Positions 6,662 through 19,425 of a DNA stretch of 21,174 nt are shown piece after piece. This DNA comes from a virus. The stretch covers positions 1-21,174 of the IMG/VR virus record IMGVR_UViG_3300017786_000183, one strand, 5' to 3'. Positions within the stretch are counted from its first letter, which is position 1; each line of letters opens with the position of its first letter. Made by a program: the position numbers and the translations under genes. The notes below the pieces were generated by a model. It searched no databases and was not told the origin of the DNA. It saw only the letters and a list, made by a program, of their open reading frames with translations.

Positions 6662-8041
6662 ATGGCATACATAGGAACATCTCCTTCAAATGGAGTTAGA
6701 CGAGTCTTTGATTACACAGCTACTGCTGGACAGGACACATTTCAAAGTACAGATAATAATGGGCAGTCTCTTGTATACACAGACAGTGCCTACATAGACG
6801 TATATCAAAATGGTATCTTACTTTTACCTTCTGACTACGTAGCAACTTCAGGTACTACCGTTGTACTAGACGTACCTGCGATATTAGAAGACACAGTTCA
6901 AATTGTAGCATATGATGTGTTCTCCGTAGCTGACACAGTAAGTGCTAGTGATGGTGGTTCATTTGCAGGTAATGTAGGAATAGGTGGTACTCTTGCTGTT
7001 ACAGGTGCTTTAACAGGAACTACAGCGACATTTACAACTGATGATAACAACCCACAACTTACATTAATATCTACTGATGCAGATGCGAGTAGTGGTCCTG
7101 TTTTAGAGCTATATCGCAACTCATCAAGTCCTGCTGATGATGATGTTTTGGGTGAAATAGAGTTTCATGGAGAAAATGATGCAGACGAAAAAATACAATA
7201 TGGACTTATTGCTGCTAAACTTCAGGATGCTTCAGATGGAACTGAAGATGTTAGATTAAGTTTTAAAACAATAACAGCAGGTACTGAAAGAGAAAGAATT
7301 ACAATTCAGCCAACCGAAACTGTATTTAATGAAGATAGTCAAGACCTAGACTTTCGTGTTGAATCAAATGGCAATGCAAATATGATTTTTGTTGATGGTG
7401 GTAATGACAAAGTTGGTATAGGAAATAATAACCCTAATGATTTTGGAAGTCTTGCTGCTGATTTAGTTATAGGAACAACATCAGGAGAACATGGTTTAAC
7501 TATTGTTACTGGTACTGATGCTAGTGCAAGAATGCAATTTGCTGATAACACATCTTCTCCATTTGTTGGTGCTATTGAGTATGCTCATGGTAGTAGTAAT
7601 TCTCTTATATTTTATACTGATGGTTCATCACGATTAACTATTAATGCTACAGGAAATTTAGTAAGTCCTGCAACATATTCCTCTACAACTGCAAATGCTA
7701 CAAATATGAGAGTTGAATCTAATGGAGTTTTTGTAAGGTCAACTTCTTCAAGACGATATAAAAACACTATAGAAGATGCAACTAAAGGTCTTGCAGAATT
7801 ACAAACATTAAGACCAGTAACGTATAAAGGTAATAATGATGGAGAAAAAGTTTTTGGTGGATTGATTGCTGAAGAAGTACATGATGCAGGATTAACAGAG
7901 TTTGTTGAGTATAATGAAAATGACGAACCTGATGCTTTAGCTTATGGTCATATGGTTTCGTTGTGTATCAAAGCAATTCAAGAACTTAAAACAGAACTTG
8001 ATGAAGCAAAAGCTAGAATTACAGCATTGGAGAGCAAATAA
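6662..8041 (+). CDS. Tail fibre/spike with self-cleaving S74 chaperone domain
   Basis: A 459-residue protein preceded by TAGGAGATAAC. Residues 1 to about 105 are an attachment domain starting MAYIGTSPSNGVRRVF, with YIDVYQNGILLLPSDYV. The middle is a repetitive beta shaft (GNVGIGGTLAVTG, DNKVGIGNNNPNDFG-like). Residues 361-459 match the Peptidase_S74 intramolecular chaperone: TSSRRYKNTIE, then LRPVTYKG, FGGLIAEEV, a YGHMVSL segment and a final helix with heptad spacing. By comparison with the canonical SDxRxK motif, the Ser-Lys dyad would be S362 and K367, with Ser replacing the usual Asp at 363. Such domains trimerise the fibre and then cut themselves off, which would leave a mature protein of about 361 residues. 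It is coupled to the next gene by a TAATG overlap. Confidence 0.82.
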   Translation: MAYIGTSPSNGVRRVFDYTATAGQDTFQSTDNNGQSLVYTDSAYIDVYQNGILLLPSDYVATSGTTVVLDVPAILEDTVQIVAYDVFSVADTVSASDGGSFAGNVGIGGTLAVTGALTGTTATFTTDDNNPQLTLISTDADASSGPVLELYRNSSSPADDDVLGEIEFHGENDADEKIQYGLIAAKLQDASDGTEDVRLSFKTITAGTERERITIQPTETVFNEDSQDLDFRVESNGNANMIFVDGGNDKVGIGNNNPNDFGSLAADLVIGTTSGEHGLTIVTGTDASARMQFADNTSSPFVGAIEYAHGSSNSLIFYTDGSSRLTINATGNLVSPATYSSTTANATNMRVESNGVFVRSTSSRRYKNTIEDATKGLAELQTLRPVTYKGNNDGEKVFGGLIAEEVHDAGLTEFVEYNENDEPDALAYGHMVSLCIKAIQELKTELDEAKARITALESK

Positions 8042-8397
8042 TGAGTAAAGCAGCAAAATTAGCAGTCATAGCAGGTAGAGCAGATACACTAGTAGACACA
8101 ACTAATACAGGTGATGTGGCACTTAACTTTGGACAGTATCAAAACTTCATCTTAACTTTTACAGATAATGTAGTATTTACTAATCCAACTACAGAAGCTA
8201 TAGGTCAATCAGGGTTTATTATTTGTATACAAGATGGAACAGGTAGTCGTGGTTTAACACTTAATGGAGACTATGAGACAGCAGGTGGTGTAGGCATTAC
8301 ATTAAGCACCAATGCTAACACAGTTGATATGATACCTTACGTGGTTCAGTCAGCTAGTAACATATTATTAGGACACGTACAAAAGGGTTTTGCATAG
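8041..8397 (+). CDS. Small virion protein between fibre genes
   Basis: A 118-residue protein encoded between two fibre genes with one-base overlaps on both sides (TAATG at its start, TAGTG at its end). After a short basic N-terminus (MSKAAKLAVIAGRA) it alternates hydrophobic strands with polar turns: VALNFGQYQNFILTF, then GFIICIQDGTGSRGLTL, and VDMIPYVVQSASNILLGHVQKGF. This reads as a small all-beta domain resembling the terminal piece found at the end of some phage fibres, here as a separate gene. It may be a fibre tip, a connector for the next protein or a chaperone-like partner. There is no membrane segment and no catalytic motif. The family is not recognised with certainty. Confidence 0.5.
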   Translation: MSKAAKLAVIAGRADTLVDTTNTGDVALNFGQYQNFILTFTDNVVFTNPTTEAIGQSGFIICIQDGTGSRGLTLNGDYETAGGVGITLSTNANTVDMIPYVVQSASNILLGHVQKGFA

Positions 8398-10940
8398 TGA
8401 CATTTAATGGCAATGGTAATTTAACAGGGTCAGCACAATACTTTAATGATAAGGTATTCTATAATGGTGTTGCTACACAGTCATTGAGGTTTGATGATGG
8501 CAGTTCTCATAAATTGACTAAAGACTTTAGTGGCTCTTCTCCTGATAATGATAAAAAAATGACCATAAGTGTGTGGGTAAAAAGAGGGAATTTATCTGGA
8601 AGCACCCAAGTTATTATTGGTAATTATAATTCTGTTCGCTTTTTAGGAGAATTGGCTTGGGATGGAACAGATAAATTACGTTTTGACCCCGGAGGTGATG
8701 GCAATGGTTCTTCAAATTCTTATAGAGTAGAAACAACTGCTTTATTTAGAGATGTTAGTGCTTGGTATCACATTGTTCTAGCATATGATTCAACACAAGG
8801 CACAGATACTAATAGAGTTAAACTTTATGTAAATGGCACACAACAAACACTAACTGCACCATCTGGTCAGTCATTTCCTCCACTAAATTATGCACATCTT
8901 TATTCCTATGCAGGGGCAAATAATACAATAGGAGAGTTTGGAGCAGGTTTTAATTCTGGTTTTTTAGATGGATATTTATCTGAATTTAATTTTATAGATG
9001 GACTTTCATTTTTTTCTGATACATCAGGAACTCCAAATACATCATTTAATATTAACTCATTTGGTGAAACAAAAAATGGTGTATGGATAGCCAAAGAGTA
9101 TGAGGGTTCATATGGCACTAATGGATATAGATTAGAGTTTAAACAAACTGGAACTGGTACTGCATCAACATCAACAATAGGTGCAGATACAAGTGGAAAT
9201 AATAATCATTGGACATCTAGTGGTATAGTCGCATCTGATTGTGCCATGCCTGATAGTCCTGAGAATAATTTTCCTACGTTAAATCCTTTAGTTGTTACTG
9301 CTTCAGCAACAAACTCTTATGCAGAGGGTAATTTGCAAGGTGGAACTAGCAGTACTGGTGGTGGTAATATAACTGCAACTATGGCAATACCATCTGAAGG
9401 CAAATGGTATTGGGAATTTAAGTCTACCACTATAGGAAGTGGCATAAATTTAGGTTTATGGGAGCCAGATGCTAATGAAGATTTTTTTTACCAAGTTACA
9501 CCTAGTATTGCTTATTTAAGTAATGCCAACAAAAGAATAAATAACTCAACTACAAGTTATGGAGCAAGTTGGGATAGTTCAAACATAATAGGTGTTGCTG
9601 TTGACATTGATGGTGGAACAGTAACCTTTTATAAAGACAATGCAAGTCAAGGTGCTATAACTTTTGATGGAAGTGGGTTATTACCAGTTTTTGGTGATAA
9701 TACTGGTGGTTCAGGCTGTACTGCAAAAATTAATTTTGGTCAAGACCCAAGTTTTTCAGGTACATTAACTGGTGATGATATAGGAACTGAAACACCAAGT
9801 AATGGAGTAGGAGTATTTAAATATGCACCACCAACAGGCTATCTAGCATTATGTTCAGCTAACTTACCTGAACCAACCATAGGTCCTAATGTTGCTACAC
9901 AAGCTGATAATTATTTTAATACAGTTCTTTGGACTGGGAATGGTACTAATCCAAGAACTATAAGTGGTGTAGGTTTTCAGCCAGATTGGATTTGGCATAA
10001 ACCCCGTAACTTAGGCTATAACCATTTAGCTTGGGATAGTTCAAGAGGAGCAGGTTCAAATAGCCTACTAACACTTTTTCCAAATCTTACAAATGACGAG
10101 TCTGATTCCTTGCAAAGTCAAGGTAATGCCACATCATTTGATAGTGATGGATTTATTGTAAATGCAGGTTCATCTGGTGATAATCATGTAAATGATGCAA
10201 GTTATAATTATGTAGCGTGGAACTGGAAAGCAAATGGTGGCACAACCTCAAGCAATACAGATGGCTCTATAACAAGTACAGTACAAGCAAACACAACGGC
10301 AGGGTTTAGTATTGTTACTTATACTGGTAATGGAACAAATGGTGCAACTATTGGACATGGTTTAGGTGTTAAACCTGCTATGATTTCATTTAAGAATAGA
10401 GATTCAACAGCAGGTTGGGCAACATATCACAAAGAATTGGGTGCTACTAAGTTAATTTATCTTGATTTGACTAACGCATCAACTTCATCAGATGCTCATC
10501 TTAATAATACAGAACCAACAGATACCTTGATAACATTACATGACCACGTTTTAACAAATTCATCAGATGATTATGTAGCCTATTGTTTTGCAGAGATAGA
10601 GGGTTACAGCCGTTTTGGCAGTTTTCTTGGAAACGGTGATGCTGATGGTGCGTTTGTTCATACTGGATTTCGCCCTGCTTGGCTTATGGTGAAAAGATAT
10701 GATTCAACTAATAATTGGCACATTTGGGATACTACAAGAGGAACTTCAAATCCAATGGGTAGTGGTTCACTATTAGTTGCTGATGATGTTTATTATGAAT
10801 CGCAACTTGGTTCAGTATTAGACATTCTAAGTAATGGCTTCAAACCTCGTGCTAATTCTAATGGTTATAATGGTTCTGGTGCTTCATACATATATATGGC
10901 ATTTGCCGAAACCCCTTTTAAGTATGCTAATGCAAGATAG
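8397..10940 (+). CDS. Large multidomain receptor-binding fibre: LamG, SPRY-like, three C-terminal repeats
   Basis: An 847-residue protein that starts on GTG (TAGTG overlap with the upstream stop; AAAAGGG lies about nine bases before it). Residues about 25-200 look like a LamG/concanavalin-type jelly roll (MTISVWVKRG, WYHIVLAYD, VKLYVNGT, GYLSEFNFIDG). Residues about 333-451 resemble a SPRY domain (EGKWYWEF, NIIGVAVDIDGGTVTFYKDN, GLLPVFGDN, INFG). The rest is three repeats starting near residues 505, 636 and 733, each with a TGNGT- or LGNGD-type opening, G(F/L)xP-W or A, K-x-R, W and then a YVAW/YVAY/YIYM-type closing strand; the protein ends FKYANAR. These carbohydrate-binding-type folds point to host-surface recognition. 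It is the longest product of the fibre block and is followed by the assembly-like gene. Confidence 0.7.
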   Translation: MTFNGNGNLTGSAQYFNDKVFYNGVATQSLRFDDGSSHKLTKDFSGSSPDNDKKMTISVWVKRGNLSGSTQVIIGNYNSVRFLGELAWDGTDKLRFDPGGDGNGSSNSYRVETTALFRDVSAWYHIVLAYDSTQGTDTNRVKLYVNGTQQTLTAPSGQSFPPLNYAHLYSYAGANNTIGEFGAGFNSGFLDGYLSEFNFIDGLSFFSDTSGTPNTSFNINSFGETKNGVWIAKEYEGSYGTNGYRLEFKQTGTGTASTSTIGADTSGNNNHWTSSGIVASDCAMPDSPENNFPTLNPLVVTASATNSYAEGNLQGGTSSTGGGNITATMAIPSEGKWYWEFKSTTIGSGINLGLWEPDANEDFFYQVTPSIAYLSNANKRINNSTTSYGASWDSSNIIGVAVDIDGGTVTFYKDNASQGAITFDGSGLLPVFGDNTGGSGCTAKINFGQDPSFSGTLTGDDIGTETPSNGVGVFKYAPPTGYLALCSANLPEPTIGPNVATQADNYFNTVLWTGNGTNPRTISGVGFQPDWIWHKPRNLGYNHLAWDSSRGAGSNSLLTLFPNLTNDESDSLQSQGNATSFDSDGFIVNAGSSGDNHVNDASYNYVAWNWKANGGTTSSNTDGSITSTVQANTTAGFSIVTYTGNGTNGATIGHGLGVKPAMISFKNRDSTAGWATYHKELGATKLIYLDLTNASTSSDAHLNNTEPTDTLITLHDHVLTNSSDDYVAYCFAEIEGYSRFGSFLGNGDADGAFVHTGFRPAWLMVKRYDSTNNWHIWDTTRGTSNPMGSGSLLVADDVYYESQLGSVLDILSNGFKPRANSNGYNGSGASYIYMAFAETPFKYANAR
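9912..10940 (+). repeat. Three C-terminal protein repeats within the 8397 gene
   Basis: Repeat A (about residues 505-625) opens VLWTGNGTNPRTISGVGFQP and includes WDSSRGAGS and YVAWNWK. Repeat B (about 636-732) opens VTYTGNGTNGATIGHGLGVK, includes KNRDSTAGW and ends YVAYCFAEIEGY. Repeat C (about 733-847) opens GSFLGNGDADGAFVHTGFRP, includes WHIWDTTRG and ends YIYMAFAETPF. They are diverged, so this is an old protein-level triplication rather than recent DNA repeats. Confidence 0.75.
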
Positions 10941-11621: not shown

Positions 11622-13940
11622 ATGCAAACATTAAATAACTTACCTGAAGAAATGCAAATGGTTATTGCTAGGAACTTAGGTTATGATGGAAAGAAAGAAG
11701 GTTTTCCTGCCTATCTAATGTCCAATAGAAGAGTAGCAGATAAGTATACTGCTTTAGAAAATGCATTTAAAGGACAACAAGAGTTTAGACAACAGGCATT
11801 ACAACAGAAGATGGCTGAGGGTGGTTTAATGAAACCCTTTGAGCAGAATCAACAACAGCCTATGGTTGGAGGTTACGTACCACCCCCCAAGCAATCCTTT
11901 GCAACAGGTGGTCAAGTAGCAGGGATAACTACAACTATGCCTACTGCTCCTACAATAAATGCTCCTGACAAACAACAGTATAACTTTGGAATACCTGAAG
12001 CTATAGAGCAAAATCCGGACTTTGGAAAGATAGTTGGTGGACCTGCTTTACCACCTGTTATAGACCCTAATTTACCTAACCCTGACCCTACTCCACCTGC
12101 ATCTACAGTCAATGTAGAAACAACGCCTACAGTAGCACCCCCATCACAAAACTTTACAGGTACAACTAGAGAGGTTGTTGACACTAATCAATTTCTAGAA
12201 GATGGAACAACTCCTAATCCTAACTATAATAAACCTGTTTTAGGTGAGGATGGTAACCCTCTTACAGAAGAAGTAGGACCAACGATAGGAGATGTGTCTT
12301 CTCAAATGTTGACAACTCCCGGATTACCTGCTGGTTCAGAGGTACAAACAGTTGCTACAACTGCTACAGGAGACCAATTAGTAGGTGATAGTGTAGGTCA
12401 ACTAACAGGTGATGTTGCATTAGGAACTGCACAAGCAAGTACAACCACAATAAATCAACAGGATGCTACAAGTGCTAACACAATGACAGCAGATACAGTA
12501 GCAACAGATGTTAATAAAGCTGTAGAAAACTTAAAGGGTGCAACAACAGTACTAGACTTGCAGTCTCAAGTATCAGCAGCACAACAAGAAACAAGTGCTG
12601 TATCTGGATTAGAAGCAGAGCAGGGTGTAGCCACAACAATGGAAAATCCTGTACAAAGAGAGATACAGGATGGTGAATTAATATCAGGTGCGGCTAATGC
12701 TGAAAAAGCAGCTAAGTATACTGAACAAATACAAGCAGCCACAGCATTACCTAGTGAAAAAGCTACTGTTCAAGGACAACTAGCAGGTCTTACTGCTAAC
12801 TTTGATTCTAATAATCCACCACCTTGGGCTGCAGGAACATTACGTGCTGTATCAGCTAAGATGGCAGCTAGAGGAATGGGTGCATCATCAATGGCAGGGC
12901 AGGCTATGCTACAAGGTGCATTAGAGTCAGCACTTCCTATAGCACAAGCAGATGCCGCAACAACTGCAAGTTTTGAAGCACAGAATTTATCTAACAGACA
13001 AGCTAGAGCAATGTTAGCAGCAGAGCAACGTGCTACTTTTCTAGGGCAAGAGTTTGACCAAGAATTTAAAGCAAGAGTGCAAAACTCTGCTAGGATAGGT
13101 GACATAGCTGATAAGAACTTTACTGCTGAACAACAGATAGCACTAGAAAATGCTAAAGCTGCCCAGACAATGAACCTACAAAATCTAAGTAACAAACAAG
13201 CTCTTGTTATGGCTGAAGCCGCAGCACTTGCAGACTTAGACATGGCTAACTTAAGTAATAGACAACAGGCTGCTGTACAAAATGCAAATGCTTTCTTACA
13301 AAAGGATATGGCTGAACTATCTAACCAACAACAAGCAGATATGTTTTCAGCACAACAACAAGTACAAGCTTTGTTTACTGACCAAGCAGCCACAAATGCG
13401 GCTAAACAATTTAATGCTACGTCAGAAAATCAAGTAGACCAATTCTTTGCTTCTCTGACACAGGCGGCTAATCAGTTTAATGCATCACAGACAAATGCAC
13501 AAGAACAGTTTAATGCAGGTCAAACAAATACAATAGAAAGATTTAATGCAGAGATTAATAACCAACGTGACCAATTCAATGCACAGAATCAAACTGTTAT
13601 AGCACAGAGTAATGCTAATTGGAGAAGACAAATAGCAACAGAGGGAACTGCCGCCACCAATCGTGCTAATGAATTAAATGCTCAGAACATATTAGGTATA
13701 AGTCAAACTGCTTACAATAATTTATGGCAACACTATGGAGACACAATGGAGTGGGCATGGACATCAGCAGAGAATGAAAGAAGTCGTGTTATTGAATTAG
13801 CAATGGCTCAATTACAAGCTGACAGTGCTACTAATATACAAGCAATGAAAGACGATACAGCATCATCAACTGCTTTTGGTGGATTGATAGGTAAATTTAT
13901 TACAGGTAGCATATTTGGAGGAGGAGGAGGATTATTCTAA
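11622..13940 (+). CDS. Large internal-virion-type protein with 11-residue helical repeat array
   Basis: A 772-residue protein with AAGGA ahead of its ATG. Residues 1 to about 75 are helical and charged (NLPEEMQMVIARNLGYDG). Residues about 85-330 are Pro-, Thr-, Gln- and Gly-rich and probably disordered (PPPKQSFATGGQVAG, NPDPTPPASTVNVETTPTVA). From residue 455 the chain follows an unbroken 11-residue period for at least 20 units (to 674), with Asn at the first position of most units, then less regularly to about 707. The end is a hydrophobic Gly-rich tail (KFITGSIFGGGGGLF). Gene order after the fibres and before two further large proteins fits an internal core or ejection protein that forms a helical conduit on infection, by analogy with T7-type internal virion proteins; no clear family match is claimed. 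No enzyme motif is seen. Confidence 0.6.
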   Translation: MQTLNNLPEEMQMVIARNLGYDGKKEGFPAYLMSNRRVADKYTALENAFKGQQEFRQQALQQKMAEGGLMKPFEQNQQQPMVGGYVPPPKQSFATGGQVAGITTTMPTAPTINAPDKQQYNFGIPEAIEQNPDFGKIVGGPALPPVIDPNLPNPDPTPPASTVNVETTPTVAPPSQNFTGTTREVVDTNQFLEDGTTPNPNYNKPVLGEDGNPLTEEVGPTIGDVSSQMLTTPGLPAGSEVQTVATTATGDQLVGDSVGQLTGDVALGTAQASTTTINQQDATSANTMTADTVATDVNKAVENLKGATTVLDLQSQVSAAQQETSAVSGLEAEQGVATTMENPVQREIQDGELISGAANAEKAAKYTEQIQAATALPSEKATVQGQLAGLTANFDSNNPPPWAAGTLRAVSAKMAARGMGASSMAGQAMLQGALESALPIAQADAATTASFEAQNLSNRQARAMLAAEQRATFLGQEFDQEFKARVQNSARIGDIADKNFTAEQQIALENAKAAQTMNLQNLSNKQALVMAEAAALADLDMANLSNRQQAAVQNANAFLQKDMAELSNQQQADMFSAQQQVQALFTDQAATNAAKQFNATSENQVDQFFASLTQAANQFNASQTNAQEQFNAGQTNTIERFNAEINNQRDQFNAQNQTVIAQSNANWRRQIATEGTAATNRANELNAQNILGISQTAYNNLWQHYGDTMEWAWTSAENERSRVIELAMAQLQADSATNIQAMKDDTASSTAFGGLIGKFITGSIFGGGGGLF
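12984..13643 (+). repeat. Twenty-unit 11-residue (33-nt) repeat array
   Basis: Reading from N455 in steps of 11, units begin NLSNRQARAML, AAEQRATFLGQ, EFDQEFKARVQ, NSARIGDIADK, and so on; 13 of 20 units start with Asn. Four units have (N/E)LSN(R/K/Q)Q, and later units end in (Q/R)F followed by NA, so the DNA shows near-identical CAGTTTAATGCA-type stretches every 33 bases between about 13407 and 13590. Later steps (GTAATNRANEL, NAQNILGISQT) keep the phase. Confidence 0.85.
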
Positions 13941-14131
13941 TGAATACTAACCCAGCATTAAATGCATATCGCAAGATTAAAGAACAAAAAGAAGAACCAA
14001 AAACTAATAAAGCAGGTGGTCTGCTAACACGTAGCAATGCTATTAAACGTGCAGGTAAGGCTGACCCTAAAGAAGAAGTGTCCATGCGAGTAGCTAGATA
14101 CGTAAATGATATAAGGAATTACAATGCCTGA
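13940..14131 (+). CDS. Small basic hypothetical protein in virion operon
   Basis: A 63-residue protein starting on an ATG that shares a base with the upstream stop and overlapping the next gene by eight bases. It is rich in Lys and Arg (AYRKIKEQKEEPK, RSNAIKRAGKADPKEE) and ends in a likely helix (SMRVARYVNDIRNYNA). It has no hydrophobic segment, Cys or enzyme motif. Tight placement between a large internal-type protein and a conserved-looking 167-residue protein suggests an accessory virion or assembly factor. I do not recognise a family. That it is a real gene rests on its fit between two overlapping neighbours. Confidence 0.6.
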   Translation: MNTNPALNAYRKIKEQKEEPKTNKAGGLLTRSNAIKRAGKADPKEEVSMRVARYVNDIRNYNA

Positions 14132-14627
14132 AGCACAACAACCCTCATTTAGCCGACCTATTCCCGGACAATCTCTCACAGCAGAGTTGGGTAATAGACC
14201 GTGGCAATCACCACCACAGTATTCTACACTAGAAGAAGCTATGGATTGGTACTTAGAAAGATTTGATAGTCAAGAAGTTATTGATGAACTTATGGCTGTT
14301 CTTGAATCAGGTATACCTATTAGTACTGTTGCTAACTCTATGCAGTTGGGTGCTGTCTTACAAGGTGTTCACAGTGTAGATGTAGGTGTATTGGTTATGC
14401 CTATAATTATGGAGATGATGAAATACCTAGCAGATAAAACAGATACTAAATATAAGATGGGTGATGAACCTGAAGAAACAGATAAACCTACAGATGCAGT
14501 AATGACATCAGCACTTAACGAATTAAAGAACCAACAACAAGGCTCTATGGAAACAGAGCCAATGGAAGAAGAGGAAGAAGAAGAACCAATGCCTGAACAG
14601 TCAGGTCTAATGGCAAGGAGAGCTTAA
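14124..14627 (+). CDS. Hypothetical virion-operon protein with acidic tail
   Basis: A 167-residue protein. It opens with a Pro-rich stretch (SRPIPGQSLTAELGNRPWQS, PPQYSTLEEAMDWYLERF) followed by helices and a hydrophobic but probably soluble centre (GIPISTVANSMQLGAVLQGV, HSVDVGVLVMPIIMEMMKYL). The last 30 residues include an uninterrupted acidic run (MEEEEEEEPMPEQ). The GNRPW-PPQYST-EEA-DWYL pattern with GIP and HS-DVGVLV-P is one I recall from hypothetical proteins of marine podoviruses next to their large internal proteins; no function is known to me. Its ATG overlaps the small basic gene by eight bases, and the stop overlaps the next ATG by one. The acidic tail may pair with its strongly basic neighbour, which is speculation. 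Confidence 0.65.
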   Translation: MPEAQQPSFSRPIPGQSLTAELGNRPWQSPPQYSTLEEAMDWYLERFDSQEVIDELMAVLESGIPISTVANSMQLGAVLQGVHSVDVGVLVMPIIMEMMKYLADKTDTKYKMGDEPEETDKPTDAVMTSALNELKNQQQGSMETEPMEEEEEEEPMPEQSGLMARRA

Positions 14628-15898
14628 TGGGTTTTAATTTTATGGCTGCCCTTGGTGGAGCAGCATCACAGATAACAAAAGATATAGAAGAGCAGGAGCA
14701 AGAGGTAAAGCTTCGTACTCGTACTATACTTGACAGACATGTAGCTGAAACTGCAGCTAATAGAAAAGAATATAAAGCCAATAAAAAGAAAGTACAAGAG
14801 CAACTTAACTCTATCGTATCTTACTTTGGTGATGACCCTGACAGGTGGAATAAAGCTAGAGCTATTGTAGCAGGTGGCGATGCTCATGTAGCTAAGATGT
14901 CACAATACTTTGCTAAAGCACAGAATAATAAACAAGATGTAAACGAGATATACAAACTTACTAAGAGTGAGAATGATGTAGGACTTAAGGGTATTGAAGA
15001 TACTACTAATAGTCTTGTACAAATGGCACAGATTGCACAGCCTTCATTTGGTGCATCTGGACAGACAAGTAGCCTATTAGGTTCTACTGATATGTCTAAG
15101 GTATATCAACGTGGCAGACAAGAGTTTGAGAAGGCAGGTCTTTTAGATGCAGTACCTACAGCTACAGAAACAGGTGCTACATATGGTTCAGGTACATTAG
15201 ATTTAAGCAAGATAAATACAGATGCTAAATCAATAGACCAACAAAAGGCTAACATACTTAATGACTTAACTAATTATGAAGTGGGTACTCCTGAACACGA
15301 TGCGGCTTTAAAGAAGCAAGCAACTCTTAATGAGTTTGAAGAGAGTAATAGCCTAGCTTTAAAGATAGCTAAAGAACAAAATAAAACTAAAGGTCAAGCT
15401 GCTCGTAGTTTTTACATGACAACATTAAAGAATGGTCTATTAGGAATAGAGAATAAGTTTAAAGAAACTATAGTAAATGGTCCTGATGGAAAACCAATAC
15501 AAGACCCTGCTAAGAAAGCAGAGTTTAAACAACAAAGTATAAAAAAATATAAGACTGACTTTGTCAATGACTTGTTAAGAAATCCGGGTGGTTTAAGTTC
15601 TAATGGCTTAGATGTTATACAAGCTGACCCTGAATTAAATGACATTTACCAGAATATAATGAAGAAGGAACAGGATAGAATAAAAGGTACAGCACAAAAA
15701 GAACAGGCACAAAAGATAGTATCTGAAAATAAAAGTGTAAATATAAATGTAGTTAAACAGCTAAGAAATATAAAGGCAGACATGACTAAAGAACAGTTAT
15801 ATAAATTTATACTACAGGCATACCCAAAAGTTCCGGGTGTAAGTGTTGAAGACCATGCGGCAAATATAAATAAGCTAGTAGAAGAAGCATATAAATAA
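14627..15898 (+). CDS. Putative internal virion protein, helical
   Basis: A 423-residue protein, mostly alpha-helical and highly charged after a short hydrophobic start (MGFNFMAALGGAASQITKDI). Residues about 17-60 form a long charged helix (EEQEQEVKLRTRTILDRHVA, NRKEYKANKKKVQEQL). The middle is Ser/Gly-rich (QPSFGASGQTSSLLGSTDMS). The C-terminal half alternates Lys-rich helices with loops and ends INKLVEEAYK. The layout and its position between other large virion genes resemble the middle-sized internal core proteins that podoviruses eject into the host. No lytic transglycosylase, nuclease or other active-site motif is visible. It is coupled on both sides by TAATG overlaps (14625-14629 and 15896-15900). 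Confidence 0.55.
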   Translation: MGFNFMAALGGAASQITKDIEEQEQEVKLRTRTILDRHVAETAANRKEYKANKKKVQEQLNSIVSYFGDDPDRWNKARAIVAGGDAHVAKMSQYFAKAQNNKQDVNEIYKLTKSENDVGLKGIEDTTNSLVQMAQIAQPSFGASGQTSSLLGSTDMSKVYQRGRQEFEKAGLLDAVPTATETGATYGSGTLDLSKINTDAKSIDQQKANILNDLTNYEVGTPEHDAALKKQATLNEFEESNSLALKIAKEQNKTKGQAARSFYMTTLKNGLLGIENKFKETIVNGPDGKPIQDPAKKAEFKQQSIKKYKTDFVNDLLRNPGGLSSNGLDVIQADPELNDIYQNIMKKEQDRIKGTAQKEQAQKIVSENKSVNINVVKQLRNIKADMTKEQLYKFILQAYPKVPGVSVEDHAANINKLVEEAYK

Positions 15899-18800
15899 TG
15901 GTAGAAAAAGATATATACTCTATCTTCGACCAAGAGGAAGAAGAAGAGGAGAATAATATCATATCCTCTAGTAGTAGCTCTGTTACTCAAGAAGATAATA
16001 AAGATGATATGTATTCTATCTTTGACTCACAAGAAGAAGAGACTGTAGAAGAAACTGAAACAGTTGAGGATACTTCTGACTCCGATACTCCCACCCCAAT
16101 GAATGAGCTATACACAAAGGCAGATGATGTAGAGTATGCTGATGAAACGTATGGTGATACCAAGAAAACAAAAAGCTATGATGAGTTTGTAAAGGATAAG
16201 AAGTTCCTATCCACTGCTAATGAATATATGATGGCTAGGTTTGGTGAGGACAAAGGACAACGAGAAGGTGAATCTGATTCAGAGTTTACTGACAGATTTA
16301 TAGAACACTATCGTAACGTTAATGCTAATACATTAGACCTTATGGGTCAAGTGGATTGGACTCGTAGTGCTAAAGAAAAAGATAAAGCTAACTTCGGTGC
16401 TTTGTTTCGTGACATGGAACGTCTACCTTCATTCTATGAAGAAGGTGGTACTAGTTCCTTTGATGCTATCATGGACTACGGTGGAGCATTATTAACTGAC
16501 CCCCTTACATATCTAGGTTTTGGTGCAGGTGCTGTTGCTAAGTTTGGTGCAACTAGTGCCGCAAAGAAACTATTATTATCTGGTGCTACTAAAGCAGAAG
16601 TTAAAAGACAATCAATGAAGCTTGGCTTAAAAGCTGCGGCTAAACCTCTTGCTGTAGAAGTTGCAGCAGGTGCAGGTGAAGGTGCATACTTTGCTAGTGC
16701 TGGTTCAGAGATAGATGTAGCTGCTAATCTTCGTGATGAAAAAGCAGGTGCAGGTGAAATGGCATTAAGTGGTGCTCTAGTAGGTGGTGCTGTAGGTGTA
16801 TTAGGTGGTGTTGGAGCATTAGGTATAGGTAAGCTTGGTGTTGCAGGTGCTGAACGTTCTATTAAGCTACAGAAACAAGCTAAAGAATCCTTACTTAAAA
16901 AGAGAGCAGAGAAACTTAAAGCAGACGGTGCAACATCTAAAGAGATAGCTGATGCACACGACCCATTTAAAGAGATAGAAGCTGATAAGGCTATACTAGA
17001 AGGTAGAGAAATACTAGATGCCTTAGACCCTAAGACAGACTTAACACAAGCAAGCTTACAACCTGAACTAACTAAACGTGTAGCTAAAATTGCTACTGAA
17101 GTATTCAAGTCTATATCTAAGGATAAAGGCGAGCAAGCTGAAGCCTTTATGAAACCATACTTAGAAGGTAATAAAAATGCATCAACTGCCATAGCAGAGA
17201 TACTTGCTAATCTAAATGCTGAAGGTGTAAAGATTGTAGACCAAGAAGTATTAGATGGTGCATTAGCTCGTGCAGGTTTAAACCAAGAGCAGTTTGCTAA
17301 GATAACTATGACATCTATTAGTGATGCAGGTAAGACACTTACTACAGCGAGTCCACTAGGTAAATTTATAAAGAGCTTACGTGAAGCTGACCCTGAGTTG
17401 GTTAAAGAGTTTGATAAGAAGTTTGGTAAGAATGAAGTTACTACAGGTATTATGGGTAATGCCTATGACTTTATGCAAAGACTAGACCGTGAACGTAGAG
17501 CCTTAATGGTTACACAAGTAGCCACTACAGTTCGTAACGTAGCCACAGGTGTAATGAGAGTTGGCTTTGAAGCAGGTGCAAACCTAGTAGAATCCTCTAT
17601 ATATAATATAGGAAGAGGTGTACAAAGTGCAGCTAAAGGTGAGTTCAGTGCTAGTGGTATTCAAAAGGGTATGAAAGATGTATTCTATGATACCACAGAT
17701 ACATTATTACGTACCATAGATGGCTTTGAGTCCAAAGAATTAACTGAAGGTTTACTTAAATATAATCCTGCATTGCTACGTCAGATAGACAGGTCTATGC
17801 AAGAGGTGACAGGTAATCAATCTCTATCTAAAACTACTAGATGGCTTAACGGTTTGAACATGGCACAGGATAAGTTGTTTAGAAGAGCAGTGTTTACAGC
17901 ATCTTTAGATAAACAACTTAGAAGAATGGGTACTAATGTAAGAGAAGTTATTGCAGACGGTAGACCCTTACCTACAAAACAATTACAACAAGCAACAGAA
18001 GATGCCTTGTACTTTACATTCTCACGTGAGCCTAATAAAGGTGGTGGTAAAGTTGGAGATACACTAGGTAGTTTATTTGTAAAGGTTAACGAAGCCGTTG
18101 GTCCTCTTCCGGGATTACTAAATATACCTATTGGTACAGGTGCATTTCCATACGCTAGATTTATGGTTAATGCTATGCAGTTTAACTTACAGTACTCCCC
18201 GGGTAGTGTGATTGGTGCATTTAATAGTGGTGCTAAAGGACTATACAATGTATTTAAGAATAGAAAGTTACAAGACCAAGAGATAAAAGACTTAGCAGGA
18301 AGACAATTTACAGAAGCTAGAGAGAGATTAGGTAGAGGTATTGTCGGTAGTGCTGCTATGTTTGCGGCTTATAAACATCGTAAAGATTCACAGAATGATG
18401 GTACTAAATGGTATGAAGCTAAGACAGATGATGGTAGAGTCACAGACTTAAGACCATTCTTTCCACTAGCACCTTATCTATTAGTAGGCGAACTGCTAGT
18501 TAAGTTTGAGAATGGTGACTTGAATGGTATGTCAGGTAAGGAAGCACTTGAAGGATACACAGGTGCTATGTTTAGAGGTGGCTCTAGTTCATACTTAATT
18601 GATAATCTATTTCAAACTATAGGCAGTGAAGAAGGTGTAGATAGTTTAACAGGTGAAAAGATATCTGAATATATGAGTGGTTATCTAGGTGAGTTAGTAG
18701 GTGGTGCATTTACTCCACTTAAAGTGTTAAATGATATTGATGCTGCCTTTGATGTTGAAGCTGCTTATGTAAGAGATGCTAAACAGATAGAAGGATTTGG

Positions 18801-19425
18801 TGGAGTTGATAGAGGTATTGATTCATTTAAAAATGCTGCCACTAGAAACATGCCATACTTATCTAGATTATTACCTGTAGTAGAATCAGCTACTCGTGAA
18901 GGTCCTATCATTAGGCAGAGTCCACTAGGCTCACAACTAACAGGTCTAAGAAAAGAACAAGTACGTAATCCTGTAGAGTTAGAGCTAGTTAAATTTAATA
19001 TGAAGAATTGGGATGTAATGCCCACAACAGGTAACAAACAAGCAGATGCCTATACTAAAAGATTTATGGGTAAGTTTGTAGAAAAGTATTTAGCTACTGA
19101 ATTAGAATCGGAATACTATCAGGGTTTATCTAAGAACAGACAGAAGATAGCATTTAAAAACAAGCTATCCAAGTATAGAAAGTTAGCTAAAGAGTTTGCT
19201 AAAGCAATCGCAGTAGGTGAAGAGAAAGCTAAAGGAAAAGCTTACACTCCATTTGATAGGGTAGAGTGGAATAAACTAGGTAGTGATAAACGACAACTAG
19301 CCGATGAATATTATTTAGGTAAGTATGGTAAAACCATAATGGAAATGCAAGAAGCAGAGCCTGATAAGAATCACTTAATGATAGGCAAGATTCTTGGTAA
19401 AGCTTTAGTTAAGCCTTACCAATAA
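15898..19425 (+). CDS. Giant internal/ejection-type virion protein
   Basis: At 1175 residues this is the largest product in the window. The first 60 residues are acidic and disordered-looking, with a motif used twice: DIYSIFDQEEEE (residues 5-16) and DMYSIFDSQEEE (37-48). Hydrophobic Ala/Gly segments near residues 195-230 and 286-314 (SGALVGGAVGVLGGVGALGI) could insert in a membrane. The remainder is mainly helical, with a conserved-looking central part (RNVATGVMRVGFEAGANLVE, FSREPNKGGGKVGDTLGSLF) and a basic C-terminus (YQGLSKNRQKIAFKNKLSKY). Size, membrane-active segments and last place in the structural operon fit a protein ejected ahead of the DNA, like T7 gp16. I see no transglycosylase Glu motif or other enzymatic signature. 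The last codons contain a hairpin that faces the convergent minus-strand transcript. Confidence 0.6.
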   Translation: MVEKDIYSIFDQEEEEEENNIISSSSSSVTQEDNKDDMYSIFDSQEEETVEETETVEDTSDSDTPTPMNELYTKADDVEYADETYGDTKKTKSYDEFVKDKKFLSTANEYMMARFGEDKGQREGESDSEFTDRFIEHYRNVNANTLDLMGQVDWTRSAKEKDKANFGALFRDMERLPSFYEEGGTSSFDAIMDYGGALLTDPLTYLGFGAGAVAKFGATSAAKKLLLSGATKAEVKRQSMKLGLKAAAKPLAVEVAAGAGEGAYFASAGSEIDVAANLRDEKAGAGEMALSGALVGGAVGVLGGVGALGIGKLGVAGAERSIKLQKQAKESLLKKRAEKLKADGATSKEIADAHDPFKEIEADKAILEGREILDALDPKTDLTQASLQPELTKRVAKIATEVFKSISKDKGEQAEAFMKPYLEGNKNASTAIAEILANLNAEGVKIVDQEVLDGALARAGLNQEQFAKITMTSISDAGKTLTTASPLGKFIKSLREADPELVKEFDKKFGKNEVTTGIMGNAYDFMQRLDRERRALMVTQVATTVRNVATGVMRVGFEAGANLVESSIYNIGRGVQSAAKGEFSASGIQKGMKDVFYDTTDTLLRTIDGFESKELTEGLLKYNPALLRQIDRSMQEVTGNQSLSKTTRWLNGLNMAQDKLFRRAVFTASLDKQLRRMGTNVREVIADGRPLPTKQLQQATEDALYFTFSREPNKGGGKVGDTLGSLFVKVNEAVGPLPGLLNIPIGTGAFPYARFMVNAMQFNLQYSPGSVIGAFNSGAKGLYNVFKNRKLQDQEIKDLAGRQFTEARERLGRGIVGSAAMFAAYKHRKDSQNDGTKWYEAKTDDGRVTDLRPFFPLAPYLLVGELLVKFENGDLNGMSGKEALEGYTGAMFRGGSSSYLIDNLFQTIGSEEGVDSLTGEKISEYMSGYLGELVGGAFTPLKVLNDIDAAFDVEAAYVRDAKQIEGFGGVDRGIDSFKNAATRNMPYLSRLLPVVESATREGPIIRQSPLGSQLTGLRKEQVRNPVELELVKFNMKNWDVMPTTGNKQADAYTKRFMGKFVEKYLATELESEYYQGLSKNRQKIAFKNKLSKYRKLAKEFAKAIAVGEEKAKGKAYTPFDRVEWNKLGSDKRQLADEYYLGKYGKTIMEMQEAEPDKNHLMIGKILGKALVKPYQ
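19394..19422 (-). terminator. Hairpin at the convergent junction, possible terminator/3' end stabiliser
   Basis: Two 12-base arms (19394-19405 and 19411-19422) flank a 5-base loop. In the minus-strand RNA all 12 positions pair, one as a G-U wobble; in the plus-strand RNA that position is an A-C mismatch. It starts 15 bases after the MazG-like stop codon, so it fits the end of the minus-strand transcript better. Neither side has a U-run, so it is not a classical intrinsic terminator; it may block 3' decay or be processed. It lies within the last codons of the giant + strand gene, which constrains both. Confidence 0.5.

Follow-up and report, generated by a model that had tools for sequence, protein, structure and literature searches.

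The late genes of HMO-2011-type podophages include one whose product is built around a proline-free rod of 11-residue units (hendecads), four-faced in its N-terminal half and encoded in a conserved gene cassette. Across the family, this rod changes in length almost only by whole units. We tentatively propose, at just short of an even chance, that the rod protein is an ejected pilot or conduit protein of these phages.

The rod protein and its late-gene cassette

The window (the whole stretch of DNA analyzed here) is a virus record of 21,174 bases, and its structural genes match those of HMO-2011-type podophages. The rod protein (772 aa) is encoded by an open reading frame at 11622-13940 on the plus strand, with codon 455 beginning at 12984; the coordinates in the preliminary description are correct. 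In a tblastn search, the 772-aa protein has homologues in 27 phage records, headed by Puniceispirillum phage HMO-2011 and the roseophages CRP-1, CRP-345, and CRP-2, with pelagiphages lower. The match to HMO-2011 has 60% identity over 70% of the protein (E 4e-154). The gene is found where the structural module ends, shortly before larger late genes. The window shares the gene order of HMO-2011, where the rod gene (phage1322_25) is followed by genes of ~165, ~500, and ~1130 aa and then by MazG on the opposite strand. The HMO-2011 rod gene and the next three genes are all annotated as hypothetical, and the rod gene orthologues, found in the same place, carry no other name. The cassette in the window is as follows.

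11622..13940, plus strand: rod protein gene, 772 aa, homologue of HMO-2011 phage1322_25 (ORF; tblastn; annotated neighbourhood)
14124..14627, plus strand: p167 partner gene, 167 aa (tblastn; co-occurrence; AlphaFold2 [AF2])
14627..15898, plus strand: 423-aa late gene of the cassette (ORF; synteny in HMO-2011 and relatives)
15898..19425, plus strand: 1175-aa late gene of the cassette, of the size of a gp16-type ejection protein (ORF; synteny)

The same 27 annotated phage records contain both p167 and the rod gene. It was found in 294 loci, and in nearly every viral contig whose flank is long enough p167 lies downstream of the rod gene. The AF2 model of p167 is helical and confident (pLDDT 85); its fold matches no solved structure in the PDB and has one significant match among viral models, which carries no name. 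The rod protein has no Pfam, PHROG, or NCBIfam match, and searches of all four cassette proteins against these collections gave only sub-threshold Pfam matches. Sequence and profile searches of the PDB with the rod protein and its three neighbours returned nothing relevant, the best scores resembling chance matches, e.g., to designed helices. A Foldseek comparison of the low-confidence rod model with viral models gave five significant rows with no helpful functional name, the others being non-significant.

Two further genes of the window deserve mention. One, at 6662-8041, encodes a tail-fibre-like protein whose C terminus resembles, by eye only, an S74 chaperone (SSRRYKNTIEDATKGL...GLIAEEVHDAG). 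The other, at 8397-10940, has a GTG start; its 847-aa product carries SPRY and DUF7483 domains and is probably a tail fibre.

The rod protein itself can be divided into the following parts, all on the plus strand.

11622..11819: N-terminal helical domain, aa 1-66 (AF2 pLDDT mostly 75-84)
11820..12761: Pro/Thr/Gln-rich linker, mostly unstructured, aa 67-380 (AF2 pLDDT mostly <60; Pro-rich across the family)
12828..12962: N anchor, aa 403-447, RG..ASS.AG...ESALPIAQADA, a helix-turn-helix preceding the rod (conserved HMM anchor; AF2 turn 417-423)
12984..13379: rod N half, aa 455-586, 12 units, four-faced, with a 22-residue super-period (periodicity and face analyses)
13380..13709: rod C half, aa 587-696, 10 units, with F at position k in QF-NA units (periodicity; AF2 helix 588-761)
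13611..13841: C anchor, aa 664-740, NANWRRQIAT ... NLWQ..GD..EWAW.SAEN, conserved (HMM anchor; alignment)
13875..13937: Gly-rich hydrophobic C terminus, aa 752-772 (sequence; similar short tails in most relatives)

The low-complexity Pro/Thr region before the rod and the Gly-rich hydrophobic end had both been described from the sequence, and both hold. Most of the 44 aligned homologues share 45-60% identity with the window protein. In the window protein and in most relatives only ~90-105 residues follow the rod, and neither end of the protein varies with the host: both are conserved across phages that infect different hosts. The CRP-738 and CRP-3 homologues carry a C-terminal Peptidase_S74 domain (L052:4609-7023 and L056:5224-7083; E 1.7e-10 and 6.7e-6); a Pfam search found none in the window protein. 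Many relatives with 162-residue rods have similarly long C termini. HMO-2011 and some relatives (L038:14797-16917, L002, L003, L005) have a C-terminal add-on starting CWVAREVYG, which is absent from the window protein. In seven loci (L026, L027, L033, L039, L041, L043, and L044) the rod proteins reach 1014-1351 aa through N-terminal extensions of several hundred residues, and those extensions that were searched have no Pfam match.

A proline-free hendecad rod with quantized length

As the preliminary description had claimed, residues 455-674 keep an exact 11-residue frame without insertion, and Asn occupies the first position of most units (12 of 20). The self-identity of this region at shifts of 11, 22, 33, and 44 is 0.26, 0.27, 0.21, and 0.26, which against shuffled sequence corresponds to z scores of 7.8, 8.0, 5.4, and 7.1; the next best shift has a z of 1.4. 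The same test gave no 11-residue shift signal in residues 1-200 or 201-440. The frame in fact extends beyond the region first noticed, from about residue 439 to 696, and a long helical hendecad rod is supported.

We sampled 334 related loci plus the window, yielding 270 unique segments, and measured rod length as the distance from P439 (in the PIA motif) to W667 (in the WRR motif), placed with a profile HMM so that the repeats themselves were never aligned. This anchor distance is 8 mod 11 in 269 of the 270 segments. Fifteen rod lengths obey the rule: 140, 151, 162, 173, 184, 217, 228, 239, 283, 305, 316, 338, 426, 536, and 646 residues. The sole exception, L179 (317), has one additional residue near the C anchor. 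In contrast, the two control lengths, N-terminal to the first anchor and C-terminal to the second, fall evenly on all eleven residues mod 11. The comparison of unit number among homologues that had been proposed thus shows rods of 140-646 residues varying almost only by whole units. Single 11-residue steps occur, which rules out a 22-residue unit as the length step. The window's own length of 228 is common to 108 unique segments, and the HMO-2011 rod is likewise 228. The longest rod (L209:961-5283) has 646 residues between anchors; it exceeds the L204 rod by 110 residues (10 units), owing to a block that shares ~40% identity with the adjacent one.

Mapped onto a tree of p167, the neighbouring protein, which has no alignment columns in common with the rod, the lengths call for a minimum of 26 changes, and a tree of the anchors gives the same number; these are quick trees whose errors may inflate the count of 26, yet 15 lengths need 14 changes on any tree. 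Pairwise alignments of distant relatives do contain many non-11 gaps within the rods, at 3.5 per 1000 aligned residues, compared with 28 upstream of the rod and 3.2 downstream. We read those inside the rods as whole-unit gaps split by the aligner, as in the 13+53 of L048, and therefore relied on the anchor distance instead.

The 67,093 rod residues of the 270 segments include no Pro and one Cys, whereas the N-terminal parts of the same 270 proteins have 5,414 Pro in 97,088 residues. An AF2 monomer of the window protein, built on 45 sequences (mean pLDDT 54.6), places helices at 424-493, 503-517, 526-581, and 588-761 in the rod region, with helices 401-416 and 424-493 linked by an RGMGASS turn. 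One continuous helix over 455-674 is thus predicted for the C half only, which lies within the single helix 588-761 (pLDDT mostly 65-81). In the N half the model has breaks at 494-502, 518-525, and 582-587, where its confidence is low throughout; for a protein that may be oligomeric, a model of the monomer weighs little for or against continuity. Continuity through the N half is suggested instead by the lack of proline and of indels other than multiples of 11.

The two halves of the rod present different faces. In the C half there is a single stripe, with F at k, L/Q at d, and I/V at h, and the large hydrophobic residues peak at 3.66 residues, as in an ordinary hendecad coiled coil. A right-handed coiled coil, as first proposed, fits only the C half, whose hydrophobic period is 11/3. 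The hydrophobicity spectrum of the N half peaks at 11/4, not 11/3, and an 11/3 single-stripe coiled coil over the entire rod was rejected for that half. The N-half positions have distinct preferences: Asn at a; Ala/Leu at b; Ala/Met/Val at h; Leu/Met/Val at j; Gln at f and g; and charged residues at e and i. Projected on a helix with 11 residues in 3 turns, 846 units give a Gln direction of 196 degrees and a charged direction of 36 degrees, with resultants of 0.44 and 0.30 versus at most 0.07 in shuffles. The Gln face is thus ~160 degrees from the charged face, and hydrophobic positions lie on both sides between them. Taken by itself, the window protein follows this trend, though less strongly (Gln 221, charged 1 degree).

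The preliminary description also suggested recent unit duplication near 13407-13590, where similar DNA recurs at 33-base spacing. Tandem Repeats Finder (TRF) does report 2.4 copies of 33 bp at 13473-13551, but the suggestion is not borne out by codon and orthology tests. Same-residue pairs in the block 13413-13610 use the same codon at a frequency of 0.574, against 0.565 expected from codon usage. All 22 units are closest to the same-numbered unit in 107 other phages of the 228 class, not to other units there, and for 21 of the 22 the orthologous unit is closer than any paralogue in the window. With orthologous units closest and codon sharing at expectation, the units are old.

Candidate roles of the rod

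In the reading we favour, the head would contain the rod protein together with the products of the three genes that follow, and the protein would exit with, or ahead of, the DNA. The 11-residue units would form an uninterrupted alpha-helix, several copies of which could pack laterally along their two hydrophobic seams to make a tube or bundle; charged residues would point outward and the Gln amides would face the path of the DNA, an arrangement like that of the phiX174 H tube. Beyond this part, the C half would continue as a classical hendecad coiled coil with a Phe/Ile/Val core, and the Gly-rich hydrophobic end could touch the membrane. On this model, rod length would evolve in steps of 11, since inserting anything but a whole unit would turn parts of the helix relative to their neighbours. 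The sequence data favour such a mechanically packed helix in which register matters, and gene position, the Gln face, and the hydrophobic ends make a DNA-delivery apparatus its most likely setting. Counting for ejection are the periodicity (z 5-8), the length rule and its at least 26 changes, the absence of Pro, the Gln and charged faces, the gp14-gp15-gp16-like cassette, and the hydrophobic Gly-rich ends, conserved rather than host-variable. Counting against it are the poor confidence of AF2 over the N half, the occurrence in some relatives of S74, a chaperone domain usual in fibres, and sequence and profile searches in which neither T7 gp14 or gp16, nor solved ejection proteins, nor H was matched. 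In the literature searched we found no published virion proteomics of relatives, and the papers there on ICP2 fibre genes and relatives' proteomics hold no data on the rod gene.

Length itself bears on the model. At 1.5 A per residue, rods across the family would span 21 to 97 nm if straight, and those of 426-646 residues 64-97 nm. The periplasm is far narrower than the longest rods, and a podophage head is 50-70 nm in diameter. Rods of 426-646 residues thus exceed the periplasm, and the longest exceed the head, so they are not straight trans-periplasmic tubes. Such lengths pose no problem outside the head, where they fit better than across the periplasm, if the rod is instead an external trimeric alpha-helical stalk, of a tail fibre or whisker, in which the hendecad coiled coil holds a C-terminal domain off the virion. 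The CRP-3 and CRP-738 homologues end in Peptidase_S74, a chaperone of trimeric fibres, and the rod gene comes after the tail-fibre cluster in both the window and HMO-2011. We nevertheless consider a stalk less likely: the window protein and most relatives lack S74 or a receptor-binding domain in their short C-terminal parts, both protein ends are conserved between phages of different hosts, fibre-like genes are already present elsewhere in the window, and a two-seam helix with a Gln face would be unusual for a trimer.

Less probable again is a tape-measure-like or core scaffold. Here a structure about the portal axis would be set or filled by the length of the helical rod, following the logic of siphophage tape measure proteins (TMPs). 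The TMP of phage TP901-1 has 11-residue repeats (25/29) whose removal is tolerated and shortens the tail proportionally (PMC5099701), and the rod family likewise changes by whole units. However, no TMP family is matched in Pfam, PHROG, or NCBIfam, and the 184-residue rod of the related podophage MQM1 would be 27.6 nm long if straight, against a tail of 9.2 nm (PMC10410586). At 1.5 A per residue this rod does not set tail length, and a tape measure fixing the tail is unlikely. We give least credence to the idea that the rod has no mechanical role, its 11-residue steps being a by-product of recombination between 33-bp units of a tandem-repeat gene. Tandem arrays do change by whole units automatically, and the L209 and L204 rods differ by just such a block, similar to its neighbour. 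Yet this leaves unexplained the near-absence of Pro and of small net length changes in the rod, when the N-terminal flank is full of both. Moreover, the array is not homogeneous, and units that are old and individually conserved indicate that slippage is not active in the window lineage.

A more specific version of the ejected conduit, which we hold doubtful, is a length-tunable alpha-helical nanotube of dsDNA podophages: a modular, Gln-lined hendecad conduit that changes length over evolution by 11-residue steps and spans 21 to 97 nm across the family. If true, it would be the dsDNA-phage counterpart of the phiX174 H tube and the podoviral equivalent of the tape measure protein.

Comparison with phage DNA-delivery and tail proteins

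Phages of the HMO-2011 type rank among the most abundant in the sea (PMC9038755), and in the literature searched we found no description of how their DNA passes through the cell envelope. Nor did that literature, mostly without subscription journals, describe the repeats or the quantization of the rod family. That rod length has followed a strict 11-residue rule through at least 26 changes in evolution gives a clean handle for testing: should phages tolerate changes that keep the register but not those that break it, the rod would be a mechanically packed helix. Where sequence similarity fails, the rule may also help to recognize ejection modules, and the family supplies natural examples of very long helical rods.

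In order and size range, the cassette resembles the ejection operons of T7 (gp14/gp15/gp16) and P22 (gp7/gp20/gp16) (PMC8954989, PMC11784390), whose proteins, like the rod protein, are helical with a hydrophobic C terminus. It differs in having four genes rather than three, and T7 gp14, at ~200 aa, is far shorter than the rod protein. No homology to gp14 was detected (hhalign probability 0.2% against the single T7 sequence), and the 1175-aa late protein gave no sequence match to T7 gp16. With siphophage TMPs such as that of TP901-1 (PMC5099701), the rod family shares helical 11-residue repeats, tolerated length changes by repeats, and hydrophobic segments. In contrast, it comes from short-tailed phages, has no visible 18-residue repeats and no TMP family match, and in MQM1 its length does not correspond to that of the tail.

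Hendecads were thus already known in phage DNA-delivery proteins, from these TMP repeats (PMC5099701) and from phiX174 H (PMC7354561); the novelty lies in an unannotated podophage family whose rods are very long and follow a strict length rule. H comes from a tailless ssDNA phage and has only 3 hendecads plus heptads, and no H chain appeared among the PDB sequence and profile matches of the rod protein. Nonetheless, both have hendecad repeats and a long helix, with a proposed DNA-delivery role (PMC7354561). In the H tube, amide and guanidinium side chains make up most of the lining of the lumen. At the level of sequence, the two also share a Gln face ~160 degrees from a charged face, with hydrophobic or Ala positions between: the three H hendecads (PMC7354561) place Gln at 344 and charged residues at 147 degrees, practically the separation seen in the rod family.
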